NCBI GenBank assembly: GCA_003164895.1
Contig: PLUL01000021.1
Span: 1 to 64,000, forward strand
Source: Bacteroidota bacterium
GTDB taxonomy: Bacteria > Bacteroidota > Bacteroidia > Palsa-948
DNA length: 64,000 nt
Direction of reading: 5' to 3'
Shown here: positions 14,268-29,743 of the stretch, in pieces
Position numbering within the stretch: position 1 is the stretch's first letter
How the letters are laid out: the number at the start of each line of letters is the position of its first letter
The notes under the pieces: generated by a model
Told to the model about the DNA's origin: nothing
The model's database searches: none
Seen by the model: the letters and a program-made list of their open reading frames with translations, nothing else
Made by a program: the position numbers and the translations under genes

Positions 14268-14713
14268 TTACATTACATTTTCCGCAATCACAATATTTCT
14301 GAATTTATCGAGAAGAAAATTCAATTGCACAACTTCTTGTTTATCTAAGGTGGCAAGCCGTTTATCCATCTGTTCATTTTCTTTTTCAATTTCCTCAAGT
14401 AATGTAAGTCCCTCTTCAGTAATTATAATATCCATTCTTCGTCTATCAGAACCCGCTGTAGTTCTTACAACCAATTCTTTTTTTCTGAGATGTTCAACTA
14501 ACCTTGACACGTCTGACATTCGATCAAGCATTCTATCACGAATAAATGTTACCGTAATAGCTTCAGGATATTTTCCACGTAAAATGCGAAGAATATTATA
14601 TTGCTGGAGAGTTAATTTATAGGGCTTCAGAAAATCAGTAACAAACTGCAAAACCCATTTGCCGGAATAGATAAGGTTAACTCTGGCTTTATGATAATCA
14701 TTCCTGAATGGTC
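14268..14713 (-). pseudogene. MarR-family regulator, 5' end lost
   Basis: The winged-helix core and C-terminal dimer helix are complete (LTLQQYNILRILRG, DRMSDVSRLVEHLRKK, the wing SDRRRMDIIITEEG). Reading upstream in frame past the TTG at 14651 still gives family-like sequence (RPFRNDYHKARVNLIYSGKW), up to about 14713. There homology stops and the frame enters antisense transposase DNA without any ATG. The gene has therefore lost its native start and promoter to a rearrangement. A shortened product of 127 residues from TTG 14651 would lack the first dimer helix. The ligand and original target are unknown. Confidence 0.75.
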
Positions 14714-14741
14714 TGACCTTATGAAATTCTTTTTTACTAAT

Positions 14742-15113
14742 ATTGCTTCTGAACTTAAAGAATATTTAAAAGACAACCATGATATGGATCAAGTGCGTGG
14801 CAGACCCTTTCATCCCCAAACACAGGGCAAGATCGAACGCTATCATCGCACGATGAAAAATGTGGTGAAGCTTGATTATTATTATTGCCCAGAAGAATTG
14901 GAAAGCGCTCTCGAAAAATTTGTTTACACATACAACCACGAAAGATACCACGAATCGTTACAAAATTTAACTCCTGCCGATGTGAATTTGGGTCGCGGAG
15001 AATTGATTTTAAAAGAAAGAGAAAGAATAAAGCACAAATCTATTTTGAGTAGAAAAACAGAATATCAAAAACTAAAATTGCAAAAAAGAAAAATTAACTT
15101 AACTTTGAATTAA
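14742..15113 (+). mobile_element. C-terminal fragment of an rve-type (DDE) transposase
   Basis: About 124 codons matching the end of an integrase-core transposase: ASELKEYLKDN, then RPFHPQTQGKIERYHRTMKN, where the Glu of GKIER is the third DDE residue, and ERYHESLQNLTPADV, then a Lys/Arg-rich tail. The first two catalytic Asp and the N-terminal helix-turn-helix are absent. The open frame extends back to an ATG at 14691, but those 17 codons are antisense MarR sequence. IS3-like or IS481-like groups both fit. Target duplications and terminal repeats are not evident. A small perfect inverted repeat (GTGAA-aag-TTCAC, 15131-15143) follows the stop. Confidence 0.85.
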
Positions 15114-15205: not shown

Positions 15206-16897
15206 TCATGTATTTAAGAAGAAAATAAATTTGCTTCCTTGTCCGATTTCGCTTTCCACTTTTATTTCTCCGCCTTGCGCTTCGATGAATTCTTTTCCAA
15301 TTGCTAACCCCAATCCGGTGCCTTCTTGTTTGGTGCCTGGAATTCGGAAGTAACGATCGAAAATTTTATCTGTATATTTTGAATCAATTCCTTTCCCGAA
15401 ATCCTGAACGGATAATTCCATTTTTTTACCAATTGATTTTGCAGATACAACTATTTTAGAATTCTCATTTGAATAACGAATGGCGTTTGAAATCAGATTA
15501 GTCAAAACCCACGCTGTTTTTTCCGTATCGGCATTCACCGTTTGCACATCCTCCGGACAATGAACTTCAACTAAAACTTTTTTCTGCTCCGCTTGAGTTT
15601 TGGTAGCATCAATTGCATAGCGAATTATTTCTTTCACATCGGCTTGTTGAATGGAGAGATGGATTTTACCTGTTTCCACCTGAGTCATATTCAATAATTC
15701 TCCTGTTATTTTTAAAAGCCGTTCGCTGTCTTCCTTCACACTTCGAATTAATTGTTTTTGTTCGGAATTTGTTTCCCCAATTCGCTTGTCTTCCAATAAT
15801 TTCAAACTCATCTGAATAGAAGAAATGGGCGTTTTTAATTCGTGAGAAATGGTAGCGATAAAATTTGTTTTTGAAACATCCAATTCTTTAAACTGCGTAA
15901 TGTTTTTCAGAGCAATTACTTCGCCTATGATTTCATTGTTGTTCATTACGTTTTTATATTCTTTGGTGAAAAAATTTTCCTTGCCGTCAATTACAATTTT
16001 CACAGGAACATTTTTTTCTTCTTTCACTAAAAGATTCCTGAGTAAATCGTTTTTCAGCGCAACATCAGCAGAATATTTTCCTACCGCTTCATCTGCTTTT
16101 AAATTTAAAAGCGATTCGGCAATGGAATTTACAAATAGAATATTTTTTTGAGCATCCAAACCAATAACAGCATCGTTCATTTGCCCAATGATGGTTTCAA
16201 TCCGTTTCTTTTCAAACATCAATTTAGCAAGATTACTGTGTTCATATTCGTGCAGCTTCGATGCCATTTGATTGAATGCGTCAGCGAGTTCGCCAAATTC
16301 ATCCGATGACTGAAAATAAATTCGTTTATCATAATTTTTGTTTGCCACTTCCTTAATTCCTTCGGTAAGAAGTTTTATCGGATTGGCAATCCATCCTGGA
16401 AAATTTATAACGAAAGAAAATGTGGTGAGAAATAAAAATGTTACAATCAGACTGAGCCATAGTATTGCGTTTCCCGAAGTTTCCTGAGCAATTGTATTTT
16501 TCTTTTCTATAGCTTTTTGATTTAACTCGTTAATGCGACAGATTTGTTTTCTCGCATCTTCATAAAAAGCAATATCAGAATTATTTATTTTTATTTGACT
16601 GAAATCAAAACGCAATTGCTGCGTTGCCTGCGCTTCTCCTGGTTCAGTAATGTTTCCTTCCTGTGCTTTTAAGTTAGTTTCAAAATCATTTATAGCTTTC
16701 GGATTATCTTTTATTGTATCAATGTCCTTCAGCATATTATTACAGTAAAGCAGCGTGTTGTAATTATCTTTCAGAATTGCATCGGTATTATTCGATAAAC
16801 GATAGATAAAAAAAATTGCGAGAATGCCAATAACCAGAATACAAACAAATAGAAATGTTACACCGAATGCCAACTTTGATTTTACTGGAAAGCGCAT
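15206..16897 (-). CDS. HAMP-PAS sensor histidine kinase of the kdp locus
   Basis: 563 residues. First membrane helix about 8-32, a periplasmic sensor region about 33-150, second helix about 152-172, HAMP (NPIKLLTEGI...DEFGELADAFNQMASKL), a PAS domain (about 240-330) and HisKA with the phospho-acceptor His in ATISHELKTP. The ATPase follows, with N box (NLISNAIRYSNE), G1 (DFGKGID) and G2 (GTGLGLAIGKEF). It starts one base after the stand-alone KdpD gene stops, so the two are surely co-translated. It lacks the four-helix DUF4118 and GAF parts of classical KdpD, and so supplies the kinase half of a split KdpD. It probably phosphorylates the sigma-54 activator encoded at the other end of the locus. 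That pairing is inferred from context. Confidence 0.93.
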   Translation of the reverse strand: MRFPVKSKLAFGVTFLFVCILVIGILAIFFIYRLSNNTDAILKDNYNTLLYCNNMLKDIDTIKDNPKAINDFETNLKAQEGNITEPGEAQATQQLRFDFSQIKINNSDIAFYEDARKQICRINELNQKAIEKKNTIAQETSGNAILWLSLIVTFLFLTTFSFVINFPGWIANPIKLLTEGIKEVANKNYDKRIYFQSSDEFGELADAFNQMASKLHEYEHSNLAKLMFEKKRIETIIGQMNDAVIGLDAQKNILFVNSIAESLLNLKADEAVGKYSADVALKNDLLRNLLVKEEKNVPVKIVIDGKENFFTKEYKNVMNNNEIIGEVIALKNITQFKELDVSKTNFIATISHELKTPISSIQMSLKLLEDKRIGETNSEQKQLIRSVKEDSERLLKITGELLNMTQVETGKIHLSIQQADVKEIIRYAIDATKTQAEQKKVLVEVHCPEDVQTVNADTEKTAWVLTNLISNAIRYSNENSKIVVSAKSIGKKMELSVQDFGKGIDSKYTDKIFDRYFRIPGTKQEGTGLGLAIGKEFIEAQGGEIKVESEIGQGSKFIFFLNT

Positions 16898-16898
16898 A

Positions 16899-18026
16899 TT
16901 AAGAAAGAATTATTAAATCAGTATCTCTTGCCGTAAGCATATTATTCAATTCATTAAAAACATTTCTCATCAAAAGTATCCTGAATAAATTAATTCTTGG
17001 CTTGCCAATGCAAATAGTTGTTATTGCCTTTTCTTCCGAAATCTTAATAATTGCTTTTGCCACATTGCTGTCGGTAATTTTAATAACCTCGGCACCTAAT
17101 TCGGTTGCAAGTTTGAAATTATTTATCAGATGACGTTGTTTATCCAAAGGGATTTTATCGGGGCTTTCATTCGGGGTTTCAACAAATAACAAATACCATT
17201 GGGCATTATAATAGTTTGCAAGTCGGGAGGTTTTCCTGATAACTGTTTTTGCACTTTCTTCATTACTGCTTATGCAAGCAAGAAGTTTTTCGTGGCGATA
17301 TGAAAACTGCTTCGGCACTTCCGTTTCCACTTTGCGTTCCACCTGTGCGGCAACTTCTTTAAGTGCGAGTTCGCGCAACTGAAGTATTTTATCTCCCTGA
17401 AAAAAATTACTCAGTGCAGTCTGAATTTTTTGTTTTTCGTAAATCTTTCCTTCCTTCAAGCGCGTTATTAATTCATCAGCTGTCAGGTCAATATTTACAA
17501 CTTCATCTGCTTCTCGCAAAACAGAATCAGGAACGCGTTCTTGTACTTCAATTCCCGTGATGGTTTTTATTTCTTCATTCAAACTTTCGATGTGCTGAAT
17601 ATTTACTGCGCTTATGACATTAATTCCCGCATTCAGAATTTCCATTACATCCTGCCATCGTTTTTCATTTTTACTTCCTGGAATATTGGTATGGGCAAGT
17701 TCATCTACCACTACAATTTCGGGACGCAAACTGAGAATGGCATCCACATCAAGTTCCTCTAATTCTTTGCTTTTATAAAAAACTTTTCTGCGAGGAACTT
17801 CTGGCAAACCCTCCAAAAGTTCAACTGTTTCTTTTCTTCCGTGAGTTTCAATGTATCCAAGTTTTACATCAATTCCATTGCGCAAAAGCGCATGTGCTTC
17901 TTGCAACATGCGATACGTTTTTCCTACGCCCGCACTCATGCCGATGTAGATTTTAAATTTTCCTCTCCTTGATTTTTTTATCAGGCTAAGAAAATGTTCT
18001 ACATTCTGTTCTTTTTCATCTGCCAT
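16899..18026 (-). CDS. kdpD: Stand-alone KdpD sensor (KdpD N-terminal and USP domains)
   Basis: 375 residues, corresponding to the cytoplasmic N-terminal half of KdpD. The KdpD domain has Walker A (GMSAGVGKT, residues 29-37) and a Walker B-like stretch (IVVVDELAHTNIPGS). From about 245 a universal-stress-protein domain (HEKLLACISSNEESAKTVIR, ITTICIGKPR) completes it. Membrane helices and the kinase core are absent; the kinase is the next gene. Classical KdpD proteins are near 900 residues, so this is a genuine split and not a truncation, because both halves begin and end cleanly. The role is to sense potassium limitation or nucleotide state and set the balance of kinase and phosphatase activity. 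Known KdpD N-terminal domains bind ATP and c-di-AMP; whether this one does is unknown. Confidence 0.93.
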   Translation of the reverse strand: MADEKEQNVEHFLSLIKKSRRGKFKIYIGMSAGVGKTYRMLQEAHALLRNGIDVKLGYIETHGRKETVELLEGLPEVPRRKVFYKSKELEELDVDAILSLRPEIVVVDELAHTNIPGSKNEKRWQDVMEILNAGINVISAVNIQHIESLNEEIKTITGIEVQERVPDSVLREADEVVNIDLTADELITRLKEGKIYEKQKIQTALSNFFQGDKILQLRELALKEVAAQVERKVETEVPKQFSYRHEKLLACISSNEESAKTVIRKTSRLANYYNAQWYLLFVETPNESPDKIPLDKQRHLINNFKLATELGAEVIKITDSNVAKAIIKISEEKAITTICIGKPRINLFRILLMRNVFNELNNMLTARDTDLIILS

Positions 18027-23273: not shown

Positions 23274-23852
23274 TTATTTGAGATTATCTAATGCGATGTT
23301 CAGTTTAAGCACATTCACTTTTCCGGGACCCAGCAATCCGAATAATGGTCCTTCTTTTATTTTATCAATAAGGTCATAAAGTTCTTTTTCACTTCTGTTT
23401 CTTATTTTAGAAATTCTCGGCACCTGTATTTTAGCTGCCTGAAAAGAAATGTCAGGATCTAATCCGCTGCCCGATGCAGTTACCATTTCAACAGGTATGT
23501 CCGATTTTTTAACTGCCGGATTATGAATCATAAACGTATCAATGCGCGCTTGTACCTGTGCAAGGTATTCAGCATTGGTGGGTCCTTTATTGCTTGCTCC
23601 GGAACCTGCGGCATTGTAGCCCACGGCTGAAGGACGCGACCAGAAATATTTATCAGCGGTGAATGTCTGCCCGATATTTGTAAAACCATATTTTGAATTG
23701 CCGTTCGCATTTCCATAGCTTATGATTTCACCTTTGCCATGGTTGGGAGCAACAACTTGCCCGATTCCCCATACGACCAACGTGTATGCGCCTGAGAAAA
23801 AGAGAATGCAAACAAGAGTTAGTTTGATTGCGGGTAATAAATGAGTTTTCAT
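23274..23852 (-). CDS. kdpC: KdpC, potassium-transporting ATPase subunit C
   Basis: 192 residues with one N-terminal membrane helix (about 9-30, KLTLVCILFFSGAYTLVVWG) and a periplasmic domain. Family motifs are all present: YFWSRPSAVGYN, ASNKGPTNAEYL, VTASGSGLDPDIS and AAKIQVPRISKIR. KdpC binds KdpA and stabilises the KdpFABC complex. It is encoded 20 bases after kdpB. Confidence 0.97.
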   Translation of the reverse strand: MKTHLLPAIKLTLVCILFFSGAYTLVVWGIGQVVAPNHGKGEIISYGNANGNSKYGFTNIGQTFTADKYFWSRPSAVGYNAAGSGASNKGPTNAEYLAQVQARIDTFMIHNPAVKKSDIPVEMVTASGSGLDPDISFQAAKIQVPRISKIRNRSEKELYDLIDKIKEGPLFGLLGPGKVNVLKLNIALDNLK

Positions 23853-23872: not shown

Positions 23873-25921
23873 TTATATGAAGAATGCGACAGCCATGTCA
23901 ATGAGTTTAATTCCGATGAACGGGATAAGTACACCGCCACCGCCATAAATGAAAAGATTGCGTTGCAGCAATGCACTTGCGCCAATGGGTTTGTAAGTAA
24001 CACCTTTCAACGCAAGCGGAATAAGCATTGGAATAATTATTGCGTTAAAGATTACTGCTGAAAGAATCGCGCTTGCAGGTGAATGCAAATGCATAATGTT
24101 CAATGCTTGTAATGCCGGAATAGATGTAATAAAAAGTGCCGGTACGATGGCAAAATATTTTGCCACGTCATTGGCAATGGAAAAAGTGGTAAGAGTTCCG
24201 CGCGTCATCAGTAATTGTTTTCCTATCTCAACTATTTCGATAAGTTTTGTTGGGTCATTATCTAAATCAACCATGTTGCCTGCTTCTTTTGCAGCTTGTG
24301 TTCCGCTGTTCATGGCAACGCCTACATCCGCCTGAGCAAGTGCAGGAGCATCGTTGGTTCCATCGCCCATCATGGCAACAAGTTTTCCGAGCTTCTGTTC
24401 CTTTTTGATGTAGTTCATTTTATCTTCGGGTTTTGCTTCGGCAATAAAATCATCTACTCCTGCTTTTCCCGCAATGTATTTTGCTGTAAGCGGATTATCG
24501 CCCGTTACCATCACCGTTTTAACTCCCATTTTTCTCAGGCGTTCAAATCGTTCACTGATGCCTGGTTTGATAATATCCTGCAATTCAATTACGCCAACTA
24601 CTTTTTCATTTTCAGAAACAACCAAAGGTGTTCCGCCATTTGAAGCAATTTCCTTCACCTTAACTTCCATATCTCTGTGAAGTTGATTTCCTGCTTTTTC
24701 ACACAAGTTTTTAATAGCATCAAAAGCTCCCTTGCGGATACGAACTCCATTTGAAATATCTATTCCGCTGGAGCGAGTTTCTGCGGAGAATTTAACAAAG
24801 CGTGCATCTTTCAAAAGTGCATCGGTAGCTTGAGTTTTTGCTCCCTGACTTTTTGCAAGTTCAACAATGGATTTACCTTCGGGTGTTTCATCGGATAGAG
24901 ATGATAAAACACAATCAGCAATAAATTTTTCATTGTCCACGCCAACAGAAGGATAAAAATTAGTTGCTTTTCTGTTGCCGATTGTTATGGTTCCGGTTTT
25001 GTCAAGTAACAATACATCAAGGTCACCAGCAGTTTCCACTGCTTTGCCAGATTTTGTAATCACATTAGCGCGTAAAGCTCTGTCCATTCCCGCAATGCCG
25101 ATTGCTGAAAGCAGACCTCCGATGGTGGTAGGAATTAAACAAACAAAAAGAGAAATGTATGCAGCTATTGTGATTGAAGTATGCGCATAATCAGCATAAA
25201 ATTTTAATGTAACGCAAACGATGGTGAAGATGAGAGTGAAACCTGCTAATAAAATTGTCAATGCAATTTCATTCGGAGTTTTTTGACGCGATGCACCTTC
25301 CACTAATGCAATCATTTTATCTAAGAAACTTTCTCCCGGTTCTGTTGTTACCTGCACTTTTATTTTGTCTGACAAAACTTTTGTTCCGCCTGTAACCGAT
25401 GATTTATCTCCGCCTGATTCACGAATCACGGGAGCGCTTTCGCCGGTAATAGCCGATTCATCAATGGTGGCAATGCCCTCAATGATTTCTCCGTCTGTCG
25501 GAATAATATCTCCTGTTTCGCAGATAAATACATCGCCTTTAATTAATGAAGATGAGCTTACAACTTTTATTTCGTTAGCAATAATTTTTTTTGCCGGAGT
25601 TTCTTCGCGTGTTTTACGCAGGGAATTTGCCTGTGCTTTTCCGCGAGCTTCGGCAATAGCTTCAGCAAAATTTGCAAACAATAAAGTAAGAAACAGAATA
25701 ACAAATATTGAGAAGTTGTATCCAACTGAACCTTCAGAAGTGTCTTTCGACATCATACTGTAAACTGTTACATACAACATGACGGCTGTTCCGATCTCCA
25801 CTGTAAACATGACAGGATTGCGGAACATGATACGCGGATTCAGCTTAACAAACGATTGCACTAACGCTTCGTTCACCAGTTCTTTTTGGAAGAGGGCGGT
25901 ATTTCTTTGTCTTTTAGCCAT
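23873..25921 (-). CDS. kdpB: KdpB, P-type ATPase catalytic subunit
   Basis: 682 residues, the normal size. The catalytic Asp is in [11 protein letters not shown] near residue 306. The actuator domain has [15 protein letters not shown], including the Ser that is inhibited by phosphorylation in E. coli. The nucleotide-binding part has [15 protein letters not shown] and the hinge is [16 protein letters not shown]. The C-terminal helices end [10 protein letters not shown]. It powers high-affinity K+ uptake through KdpA. All catalytic residues are intact, so it is expected to be functional. Confidence 0.98.
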
Positions 25922-25949: not shown

Positions 25950-27659
25950 TTAATGTATCATTGAAAAATATTCAGCAATTGGACCTAAAACCAAAGCAGG
26001 GAAATAAGATAAAGCGGTAACAATAAAGATTACCGCGAATATCATGACTCCAAAAGTTACCGTATCTGTTTTTAAAGTGCCAGCGCTTTCTGGAATATAT
26101 TTTTTGTTTGCTAAAATTCCTGCAATGGCTACCGGTCCGATGATGGGGAGAAATCTGCCGAGTATCATCACAAAACCTGCGGTGATGTTCCAGAAAGGAG
26201 TATTATCTCCCAACCCTTCGAACCCGCTGCCGTTGTTTGCGTTACTGGACGTGTACTGATAAAGCATTTCTGAAAATCCGTGAAAGCCGGGATTGTTCAG
26301 CCAGCCCGCATGAGTAACAGGATTTGCTGCAAACCAATAAGATGCCAATGCGGTTCCTCCTTTAATAAGCAAAGCCGATAACAAAGTAACTACCACTGCG
26401 ATTTTCATTTCACGCGCTTCAATTTTCTTTCCGAGAAATTCAGGTGTTCTTCCCACCATTAATCCGCTGATGAAAACAGCAATGATTATGAAAATGAAAA
26501 AGTTTAAAATGCCAACCCCGCATCCGCCATAAAACGCATTTACCATCATGGCAAGCATTTCATTCATGCCTGATAAGGGCATAAAACTATCGTGAAAAGA
26601 ATTTACAGAACCTGTTGAAATAACAGTTGTAACAATACTCCAGTAAGCAGAAGCTGGCGTGCCAAAGCGAACTTCTTTTCCTTCCATCGCTCCGGCACTC
26701 ATGTCCACTCCCATTTTTGCGATTGCAGGATTTCCATGTTGTTCCATTATCATATTCGGAATAACAAGGCAAAGGAAACCCAGCGTCATCACTCCGAAAA
26801 TCATCCAGGCAAATTTTTTCTTTCTTAAATAATAACCTAATGCGAAAACCATTGCCATCGGAATGAGTAATTGAATAATCATTTCAATGATGTTGGTGAA
26901 GTAGTTTGGATTTTCAAAAGGATGTGCTGAGTTGACTCCAAAAAAACCACCACCATTCGTTCCTAAATGTTTAATAGGAATCATGGCAGCCACAGGACCT
27001 GTTGAAACACTTACAGTATCTGTACCTCCTTGCAAAGAGCTGATGGTATTCTTGCCGTCAAAAGTCATTGGCATTCCATTCATCATGAAAAGGATGGCTA
27101 CTACAACTGAAATAGGAAGTAAAATCCGTGTCAGCGATTTTATAAAATAGTTGTAAAAATTTCCCAAATCCTTCGTAGTGCGCGCTTTTAATGCGTTGAA
27201 CACAACTGCTGCTGCTGCTAAACCGGTTGCAGCAGAAACAAACTGCAAAAACGTGAAACACACTAGTTGAGATAAATATGTAGCTCCTGTTTCACCTGAA
27301 TAATCCTGCAAATTGCAGTTCACCAAAAAGCTGATAGCAGTATTAAATGCCAAATCCGAACTCATGGATGGATTATGATCCGGATTCATCGGCAGCCATC
27401 CCTGATTCATCAGGATGAACATGGCAAATAAAAACCAGACAAGATTAATGGTGAGCAATGCCACCATGCTTTCTTTCCAGTTCATTTCCTTTTTAGCATC
27501 AATGCCGCTGATGCGGAAAAAGAAATTTTCGAGCGGAGCAAAAAAATCAAGCAGTGATTTTTCGCCCTCGTAAACTTTAGCGATGTATTTTCCAAACGGA
27601 ATGGCAAGCGCCAGCGTGAGGACAAACATCAGGATGACTCCAAGTAGTTCTGAGTTCAT
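25950..27659 (-). CDS. kdpA: KdpA, potassium-binding/translocating subunit
   Basis: 569 residues with about ten membrane helices. Filter-region motifs of the family are intact: [37 protein letters not shown] and [12 protein letters not shown]. It carries K+ across the inner membrane with micromolar-range affinity in characterised systems. Its start lies 3 bases after the kdpF stop, so translation is probably coupled. Confidence 0.98.
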
Positions 27660-27752: not shown

Positions 27753-27845
27753 TTAAATATTTTCAAACCAATCAATTGATTTGTAGAACAGCCAAAAGCA
27801 AACAAGCCCTGCTGCAATTAGTCCGATTGTAATTAATGTGTCCAT
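27753..27845 (-). CDS. 30-residue single-helix peptide upstream of kdpF
   Basis: ATG at 27845, TAA at 27753-27755. One hydrophobic helix (LITIGLIAAGLVCFWLFY) is followed by an amphipathic end KSIDWFENI. It sits 12 bases before kdpF in the same direction. The sequence is strongly protein-like and I believe similar peptides recur in front of kdpF in Bacteroidota, but I cannot verify this. It might be an extra small subunit of the Kdp complex or a regulator of it. Confidence 0.75.
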   Translation of the reverse strand: MDTLITIGLIAAGLVCFWLFYKSIDWFENI

Positions 27846-27946: not shown

Positions 27947-28228
27947 TTATATTCCGCTTGCACAAACTTGTTTGTAATATTCTGCTTGTAGAGATTTTGG
28001 AAAAAGGTCGCGGATATTGCATTTGTGTAATTCCATAAAACATGAAACAGAAAAAAGAAACACATTTGAAATAGCATTTTTTGTTTCATTGCTTCCGGTT
28101 TCAAATAATTTTTCTGCCACCGCAAAACATTTTTTAGCTCTCGAAATATTTCCAGTTATTATTAAAGTTTTTGTTAAGTCAGCAAATCTTTCTGCTTGCT
28201 TGTACATATTCTTTGTTTGATTTTTCAT
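27947..28228 (-). CDS. Conserved helical protein, first gene of the kdp operon (DUF7674-like)
   Basis: 93 residues from ATG 28228 (MKNQTKNMYKQAERFADLTK). A longer frame to 28264 would start inside the promoter and is rejected. It is all-helical and soluble, with motifs AKKCFAVAEKLFETGSNETK and VCASGI at the end. I associate this pattern with the DUF7674 family of Bacteroidota, from memory. It lies about 20 bases downstream of the sigma-54 promoter and 102 bases before the small peptide gene. The helical-bundle size would fit a two-component adaptor or phospho-transfer decoy, but no His-phosphotransfer motif is seen. Confidence 0.75.
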   Translation of the reverse strand: MKNQTKNMYKQAERFADLTKTLIITGNISRAKKCFAVAEKLFETGSNETKNAISNVFLFSVSCFMELHKCNIRDLFPKSLQAEYYKQVCASGI

Positions 28229-28248
28229 GGGGATAAATTTATTTGTTC

Positions 28249-28263
28249 GCTTACAGTATGCCA
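28249..28263 (-). promoter_or_regulatory. Candidate sigma-54 (-24/-12) promoter of the kdp operon
   Basis: The minus strand reads TGGCATACTGTAAGC. The -24 half is a perfect TGGCA, GG and GC are 10 bases apart as required, and the -12 half is AAGC where TTGC is ideal. The predicted start of transcription is near 28238, just before the first gene. A sigma-54 activator gene and two matching upstream palindromes lie immediately upstream. Confidence 0.7.
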
Positions 28264-28350
28264 AACTCGTTCCATAAATTCAAAAACGAATCATTGTATT
28301 GAAAATGAGTTGATTAAAAGAAAAATATGATGAAAGAAAATGAGAAGAAC

Positions 28351-28365
28351 CTATCAAAATGATAG
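28351..28365. promoter_or_regulatory. Upstream activator palindrome 1
   Basis: Perfect 6+3+6 inverted repeat CTATCA-AAA-TGATAG, centred at 28358, about 120 bases upstream of the predicted kdp transcription start. This is a typical distance for an enhancer site of an NtrC-type protein. Confidence 0.7.
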
Positions 28366-28370
28366 ATCGA

Positions 28371-28385
28371 ATATCAGAATGATAG
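28371..28385. promoter_or_regulatory. Upstream activator palindrome 2
   Basis: ATATCA-GAA-TGATAG, one base away from a perfect palindrome and matching palindrome 1 in its TATCA/TGATAG arms. The two centres are 20 bases apart, about two helical turns, so bound dimers would lie on the same face. It ends 2 bases before the stop codon of the activator gene. Confidence 0.68.
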
Positions 28386-28387
28386 GG

Positions 28388-29743
28388 TCAGGAAACGATT
28401 TTGTATTCGTCTATTTTGCGGTAGAGAGTGGCTATGCCAATATTTAGTAAACGTGCAGCTTCTGCTTTATTTCCTTTGGTATAATTCAACACTTTTTGGA
28501 TGTGCAGTTTTTCAACGCTTGTCAAATCAAAAGCGGAAAGAGTTTTTCCTTTGGATGTTGTTTCAACAGTGTTTTGAATTTCAAAAGGAAGTGTATCAAT
28601 GGTGAGTTCATCGGAATTCGATAAAATAACACTTCGTTCAATTACATTTTTCAATTCGCGGATATTTCCTTTCCAAGTATGTGCTTTTAATTTTTGCAGA
28701 TAATCACTGCTAAGTTTTGCATTCCGTTTATTTATTTTGACAGAAAATTGCTGCGCAAAATGTTCGGCAAACAGTTCAATGTCTTTTACCCTTTCACGCA
28801 AAGGCGGAAGCATAATCTGAAATGCGCTGAGCCGGTAAAATAAATCTTCGCGAAAAATTCCTTCTTCAATTTCTTTTTTCAAATCGCGGTTGGTCGCTGC
28901 AATCACTCGCACATTTACTTTGATAGTTTTGGTGTCTCCCACTTTTATGAACTCGCCTGCTTCCAATACACGCAATAGCTTTGCCTGTAAATCATGATTC
29001 ATTTCACCAATTTCATCCAAGAAAATAGTTCCGTCATTGGCTTCTTCAAATAATCCTTTCTTATCCTTAATTGCACCTGTAAATGCGCCTGCTTTGTGCC
29101 CGAAGATTTCACTTTCTAAAAGTTCCTTGCTGAATGCGCTGCAATTGATGGCGACAAAGGGTTTGAGTTTTCTATTACTTCCTTGGTGAATTGCCTGAGC
29201 AAAAACTTCTTTGCCTGTTCCTGTTTCACCAAGAAGTAAAACCGTGGTATCTGTAACTGCAACTTTTTTTGCCAATGCAATTGCTTCCTGTATAGACTTT
29301 GAATTTCCAATGATATTATCAAAAGAATATTTTACGCCTACTTCCTTCTGTAATTTACAGAGGCGTTTTTGCAAATGCACTTTTTCAATGGCACGGTGAA
29401 GCAAAGGGATAATTTTGTCGTTGTCATCGGCTTTTGTGATGTAATCGAACGCGCCATTTTTTATCGCTTTTACTCCATCCGAAATATTTCCGTAAGCGGT
29501 AAGCATAATAATTTCTGCGAGCGGGAACTTGGATTTTATTTGTTGTGCAAGTTCTACTCCGTTGGCATCGGGAAGTTTTACGTCGCAAAGGATTACATCA
29601 ATGTCATTGTGTTCTAACTTTTTCCAAGCGGACTTGGCATTGTCAGCTTCATAAGTTTCAAATCCCTCCAGCGAAATAATGCGAGTCAAAAGGTTACGAA
29701 GTTTTGCTTCGTCATCTACGATTAAAATGTTGCCTGATTTCAT
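28388..29743 (-). CDS. Sigma-54-dependent response regulator of the kdp locus
   Basis: 451 residues, NtrC layout. A receiver domain has the phospho-acceptor Asp54 (ILCDVKLPD) and the acidic pair Asp10-Asp11. The AAA+ domain has Walker A (GETGTGKE), the sigma-54 contact loop (GAFTGA) and Walker B (GTIFLDEIGE), plus the arginine region FREDLFYRLSAF. A Fis-type helix-turn-helix closes the protein (NKAEAARLLNIGIATLYRKI). It is transcribed towards the kdp operon and ends 2 bases before the paired palindromes. Classical kdp loci use KdpE, an OmpR-type regulator without an AAA+ domain; here this activator takes that place. Activation by the adjacent split KdpD/kinase pair is inferred from gene order. 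Confidence 0.95.
   Translation of the reverse strand: MKSGNILIVDDEAKLRNLLTRIISLEGFETYEADNAKSAWKKLEHNDIDVILCDVKLPDANGVELAQQIKSKFPLAEIIMLTAYGNISDGVKAIKNGAFDYITKADDNDKIIPLLHRAIEKVHLQKRLCKLQKEVGVKYSFDNIIGNSKSIQEAIALAKKVAVTDTTVLLLGETGTGKEVFAQAIHQGSNRKLKPFVAINCSAFSKELLESEIFGHKAGAFTGAIKDKKGLFEEANDGTIFLDEIGEMNHDLQAKLLRVLEAGEFIKVGDTKTIKVNVRVIAATNRDLKKEIEEGIFREDLFYRLSAFQIMLPPLRERVKDIELFAEHFAQQFSVKINKRNAKLSSDYLQKLKAHTWKGNIRELKNVIERSVILSNSDELTIDTLPFEIQNTVETTSKGKTLSAFDLTSVEKLHIQKVLNYTKGNKAEAARLLNIGIATLYRKIDEYKIVS

Follow-up and report, generated by a model that had tools for sequence, protein, structure and literature searches.

The regulator KdpE of Escherichia coli is an OmpR-type protein that depends on sigma-70, and sigma-54 promoters follow a consensus near TGGCAC-N5-TTGC in which the GG and the GC lie 10 nucleotides apart. 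To our knowledge, sigma-54 control has been little explored in the Bacteroidota. No description of kdp control in this phylum was found in the open-access literature, subscription papers being outside the scope of the search, and a survey of sigma-54 regulons mentions neither kdp nor potassium (PMC12316311). The closest studied precedent is the system of Desulfovibrio vulgaris, in which the sigma-54-dependent response regulator DVU3334 has kdpFABC as its target; orthologues of DVU3334 were reported there only in D. vulgaris Miyazaki and S. fumaroxidans (PMC3333781, PMC4641369).

The kdp locus described here lies in a stretch of 64,000 nucleotides from a Bacteroidota genome (the window) and very probably carries an NtrC-like enhancer-promoter module, in which an adjacent activator would act on the kdp operon through a sigma-54 promoter. 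The activator gene, the palindromes, the promoter and the kdp operon are all found on the minus strand (Table 1). The palindromes and promoter had originally been placed upstream of kdp, and kdpFABC is indeed found downstream, but the operon opens with a DUF7674 gene, starting about 130 bp past the centre of the proximal palindrome, and a short ORF of 30 codons; these are followed by kdpF, kdpA, kdpB and kdpC, with the KdpD/Usp protein and a histidine kinase farther down.

Table 1. Features of the kdp locus and its control region, in window coordinates
Feature	Position	Strand	Remarks
Activator gene, 451 aa	28388..29743	(-)	receiver, sigma-54 AAA+ (GAFTGA), Fis-type HTH
A438 codon of the activator	28430..28432	(-)	A438 aligned to NtrC residue 457
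Activator stop codon	28390-28388	(-)	
Distal candidate activator site TATCATTCTGATA, centre 28378	28372..28384	(-)	perfect 13-bp palindrome
Proximal candidate activator site CTATCATTTTGATAG, centre 28358	28351..28365	(-)	15-bp palindrome CTATCA-TTT-TGATAG
Candidate IHF/HU-like bend site AATCAACTCATTT	28303..28315	(-)	differs from WATCARNNNNTTR at one position; in the interval from enhancer to promoter
Predicted sigma-54 promoter TGGAACGAGTTTGGC, GG-N10-GC	28260..28274	(-)	de novo motif and relatives' matrix
Originally predicted promoter TGGCATACTGTAAGC, GG-N10-GC	28249..28263	(-)	matrix score -3.7
DUF7674 gene, first in operon, ATG 28228	27947..28228	(-)	PF24722, E 2.7e-21
Conserved 30-aa ORF before kdpF	27753..27845	(-)	single membrane span
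kdpF, 25 aa	27663..27740	(-)	
kdpA	25950..27659	(-)	
kdpB	23873..25921	(-)	
kdpC	23274..23852	(-)	
KdpD sensor and Usp protein without kinase domain	16899..18026	(-)	NF038185, below cut-off
Separate histidine kinase	15206..16897	(-)	HAMP-PAS-HisKA-HATPase

The product of the 30-codon ORF, MDTLITIGLIAAGLVCFWLFYKSIDWFENI, matched no Pfam or NCBIfam family; it is found in most Bacteroidota kdp loci with a C-terminal pattern [FY]K-x-[IV]-x-x-FE-x-I and possibly represents an unrecognised Kdp accessory peptide. The DUF7674 gene of the window is 67-71% identical to its positional counterparts in Flavobacterium ichthyis (L042) and in genomes of one related genus (L117-L119), and it is absent from the kdp locus of the window's nearest relative (L011), so an exchange of the 5' part of the operon is possible. 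In addition, an apparent transposase fragment, an integrase-core-like ORF, lies directly past the end of the kdp/kinase cluster (14691-15113, plus strand).

The activator matches PF00072, PF00158 (E 1.7e-71) and PF02954, and the GAFTGA motif is present in its sequence. Together with the single RpoN gene of the host genome (PF04552, E 3.9e-48) and dyads upstream of a putative -24/-12 promoter, the locus shows features by which the NtrC class is recognized. Two genes of the HU/IHF family are also found in the host genome.

The two palindromes are real in their letters and in their spacing. Their centres are exactly 20 bp apart, as had been proposed, and they directly follow the activator gene, the distal one beginning 3 nt past the stop codon; only the proximal copy, however, has the full 15 bp originally attributed to both, the distal one being a perfect 13-mer that corresponds to the proximal core TATCATTTTGATA (28364-28352, minus strand). 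The exact string TATCAN3TGATA occurs at seven sites in the whole assembly of 3.25 Mb, two of which form the adjacent pair. Tandem matches to YCAWWNTGR-N11-YCAWWNTGR number three in the host genome, and as the other two (C7 and C49) lie inside coding sequence, a wider regulon in this genome was rejected, the copy at kdp being the only credible one. The window was likewise searched for an additional module upstream of kdpD, such as that seen in one other locus (L102), and no second pair was found near kdp on the same strand.

That the module is judged to be real follows from the conservation of its arrangement in relatives. A search with the activator yielded 78 loci. In 43 of these, kdp genes follow the activator gene within 1.4 kb, and together with the window they form a set of 44 kdp loci. 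When the 260 bp past the activator stop were scanned in these loci for pairs of YCANNNTGR 8-60 bp apart, pairs were confined to spacings of 19, 20, 21 and 22 bp (3, 9, 12 and 2 loci, or 26 of 44), compared with a mean of 0.055 and a maximum of 1 in shuffled controls. A slightly relaxed core raised the number to 37 of 44 at 19-23 bp, and the remaining 7 loci contain no pair even so. The comparison of related intergenic regions, which had been suggested as a check, hence bears out the tandem pair, but not the generality of its letters: the core YCA-N3-TGR is constant, whereas the arms differ between lineages (TATCA, CTCA, TTTCA, TTCCA), TATCA being one lineage variant and TTTCA or TTCCA the form in most relatives.

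Taken alone, the pair pattern is unspecific. At a spacing of 20, 5 of 13 matches are unrelated repeats, coding sequence or without a promoter motif, and the same is true of most matches at a spacing of 21, which was therefore rejected as a stand-alone finder, its matches being mostly 21-bp tandem repeats or coding sequence, with 5 genomes obtained at the control spacing of 26. Tandem repeats of 21 bp containing TCATTTTGG were seen at G512:C13:118185-118529 and in G626:C124/C275, unrelated to kdp.

Sigma-54-like strings are no better by themselves: 115 matches in the window are as good as TGGCATACTGTAAGC, where 104 are expected, so that such a string alone is worthless as evidence and consensus matching within the window was discarded. 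The promoter motif was instead obtained by expectation-maximisation from the sequence 3' of the pair, with no positional prior, which returned GG[CA]A[CT]-N4-TTTGGCAT. In the window this motif points to TGGAACGAGTTTGGC, which has GG-N10-GC but is a weak match, scoring 7.7 bits with a matrix made from the relatives only, compared with about 10-25 bits in most relatives, and carrying TTGGC in place of TTTGG.

It had been proposed that the promoter is TGGCATACTGTAAGC, with a start near 28238. The spacing claimed for this string is correct, GG-N10-GC being exact and accompanied by TGGCA, but the register is off, as the conserved element lies 11 bp upstream. The relatives' matrix gives -3.7 for TGGCATACTGTAAGC as opposed to 7.7 for 28274-28257, and the TGGCAT that had been taken for the -24 element is the conserved 3' part of TTTGGCAT, that is, the -12 region of TGGAACGAGTTTGGC. 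In addition, TGGCATACTGTAAGC would stand 96 bp from the proximal centre, a distance found only in Pedobacter among the relatives, whereas 85 bp, the distance of TGGAACGAGTTTGGC, is the usual class for activators whose recognition helix ends in ATLYRK, as that of the window does. TGGCATACTGTAAGC is thus probably not the promoter, and we give this alternative little chance. With the conserved promoter at 28274-28260, the predicted transcription start is at about 28248 instead of 28238.

The distance between enhancer and promoter is a further conserved trait. In the window the GG of the predicted promoter TGGAACGAGTTTGGC lies 85 bp from the proximal palindrome centre. A motif scoring 7.5 bits or more lies within 30-230 bp of 48 pairs; among these the distance is 84-86 bp in 17, 96 bp in 3 and 105-112 bp in 25 (45 of 48 together), and the reverse-strand control gave one match. 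Two further sets, both left out of the promoter matrix, show the same values. A scan of 396 Bacteroidota genomes for tandem pairs by DNA pattern alone yielded six cases with the motif, at 106, 85, 85, 85, 86 and 111 bp, and in loci that separate kdp from the activator gene by 0.7-3.4 kb, kdp has its own pair and promoter just before it, at 107, 108, 105, 96 and 96 bp. The distances are close to whole numbers of helical turns, and successive classes differ by roughly one turn. That the helix type sets the distance class was considered, but does not hold strictly, as three loci with a T-type helix (L041, L055, L085) have 84-85 bp and one with an A-type helix (L068) has 109 bp.

Between enhancer and promoter, WATCARNNNNTTR occurs in 6 of 46 segments, each time about 53 bp away from the centre of the proximal site, compared with 0.7 (maximum 3) in mononucleotide shuffles. 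This tentatively suggests a site for an IHF/HU-like protein; the one-mismatch version of the window is nearer, at 43 bp.

The proximal site of most relatives doubles as the terminator hairpin of the activator gene, with a T run, and strong hairpins followed by a T run were seen at the proximal copy in the folds of L071, L061 and L015. The palindromes might accordingly be nothing but this terminator and a decayed duplicate of it, bound by no activator. A strict terminator rule indeed accepts the proximal copy in 16 of 37 loci (about 29 loci with a simple T-run rule), but it accepts the distal copy in 0 of 37, and yet the distal copy has kept the same core and spacing. Where kdp is remote from the activator gene the pair is found before the kdp promoter instead, pairs also lie upstream of sigma-54 motifs in unrelated operons, and the operator base tracks the recognition helix of the activator, as detailed below. 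In the window itself the terminator scan detected none, the T run at the proximal site being eroded, although a laxer rule is passed. Owing to the remote-kdp loci, the distal copy and the helix covariation the terminator-only explanation is rejected as very improbable; the roles of terminator and activator site can coexist in the proximal palindrome.

The best evidence that ties the neighbouring activator to the palindromes is the covariation of its recognition helix with the operator, which suggests that this protein reads them. Across the activator loci the helix ends in ATLYRK or TTLYRK; that of the window is IATLYRK, with A438 as the specificity residue. In all 15 loci with a pair and an A-type helix, position +/-5 of the proximal site is A or C in both of its halves, whereas this holds for none of the 38 with a T-type helix, the base there being mostly T, so that helix and operator base are concordant in 53 of 53 loci. 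With the HTH left out of the activator tree, the best tree required at least five changes of helix state among these loci. Three independent pairs on supported branches all agree in direction, a number with which a sign test cannot reach significance. The clearest switch, which counts among the supported ones, is that between the window (IATLYRK with TATCA) and L010/L011 (LTTLYRK with TTCCA), which belong to the same genus as the window or a close one and whose activator is 89% identical. In the alignment to 1NTC, A438 corresponds to NtrC residue 457 and R442 to residue 461, within the DNA-reading helix. Positions 457 and 461, together with 456, are changed in the NtrC variant that is dead for DNA binding. 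A mosaic operator produced by recombination was considered, since the change in the helix does not extend beyond roughly the last 15 activator residues, and was set aside, as no donor was shown.

A Bacteroidota housekeeping promoter for kdp, with the pair serving the activator's own control only, is compatible with the sequence, given a promoter scan that does not cover Bacteroidota types, but is very improbable in view of a conserved sigma-54 motif that lies at fixed distances downstream of the activator gene and is directed towards kdp.

The separate histidine kinase is likely the partner of the activator, as suggested by gene neighbourhood: kdpD, kinase and activator genes are contiguous in L066, and activator and kinase genes are neighbours in L014, L022 and L024. 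In other genomes the pair and promoter stand upstream of DUF7674 genes, GNAT acetyltransferase genes or the kdpD unit. Four loci from Bacteroidota of the same class (L105, L106, L107, L108) have the pair with the motif at 85-86 bp before small ORFs, GNAT acetyltransferase genes and DUF7674 genes, so that the regulon of the activator may exceed kdp. In another locus (L109, near 5572, minus strand) a perfect TATCATTTTGATAG pair is located close to a divergent gene for a Kup-type potassium transporter, and no sigma-54 motif stands out at the usual distance.

From these data we would propose the following mechanism. A low-potassium signal is presumably taken up by the split KdpD sensor and the separate histidine kinase and passed on by phosphorylation to the response-regulator activator. 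Two dimers of this activator would bind the tandem palindromes with centres about two helical turns apart, as the covariation suggests. The dimers may then come together as an AAA+ ring that contacts RNA polymerase-sigma-54 at TGGAACGAGTTTGGC across a short DNA loop, possibly bent by an IHF/HU-like protein, and transcription of the DUF7674 gene, the 30-codon ORF and kdpFABC would begin at about 28248. The original description of the region as a complete control module for an enhancer-binding protein is thus supported by the conservation, the de novo motif, the covariation and the presence of RpoN, and had to be amended as regards the promoter register and the generality of TATCA.

It seems somewhat better than an even chance that the arrangement applies across the Bacteroidota, with one sigma-54 activator, a potassium regulon, a proximal operator half that doubles as terminator, promoter distances of 85, 96 and 107 bp and A/T helix switches repeated together with the operator. 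If this is true, sequence alone would be enough to read regulators and operators and to assign them to each other. The module would provide a testable operator code, a promoter register and a regulon seed for the whole phylum. In addition, the promoter distances, which step by one helical turn, form a natural series for studies of short-range enhancer looping, the joint change of specificity in regulator and operator can be studied in a natural setting, and the locus indicates, as Desulfovibrio did before, that KdpE does not always control kdp.

Like DVU3334, the activator of the window is a GAFTGA-containing sigma-54 response regulator with kdpFABC as its probable target, and in both systems KdpD is split, into a KdpD and Usp protein (DVU3336) and a separate kinase (DVU3335) in Desulfovibrio and at 15206-18026 (minus strand) here. 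Desulfovibrio, however, belongs to a different phylum and has its regulator gene in the same operon, and the accessible text on its system mentions neither DUF7674 nor a 30-codon ORF (PMC3333781, PMC4641369). The likeness to the enhancers of the E. coli NtrC/glnA type lies in the domain order, in the Fis HTH that aligns with 1NTC and in tandem dyads upstream of a -24/-12 promoter, whereas operator sequence and target differ, the pair of the window lies about two turns apart at about -110/-130 with turn-like promoter distances, and the proximal site of the relatives is inside a terminator. With E. coli KdpD/KdpE, finally, the locus shares kdpFABC as output and the KdpD/Usp sensor domain, but instead of a kinase fused to KdpD and a KdpE of the OmpR type it has a KdpD without kinase, a separate kinase and a regulator of the sigma-54 activator type.
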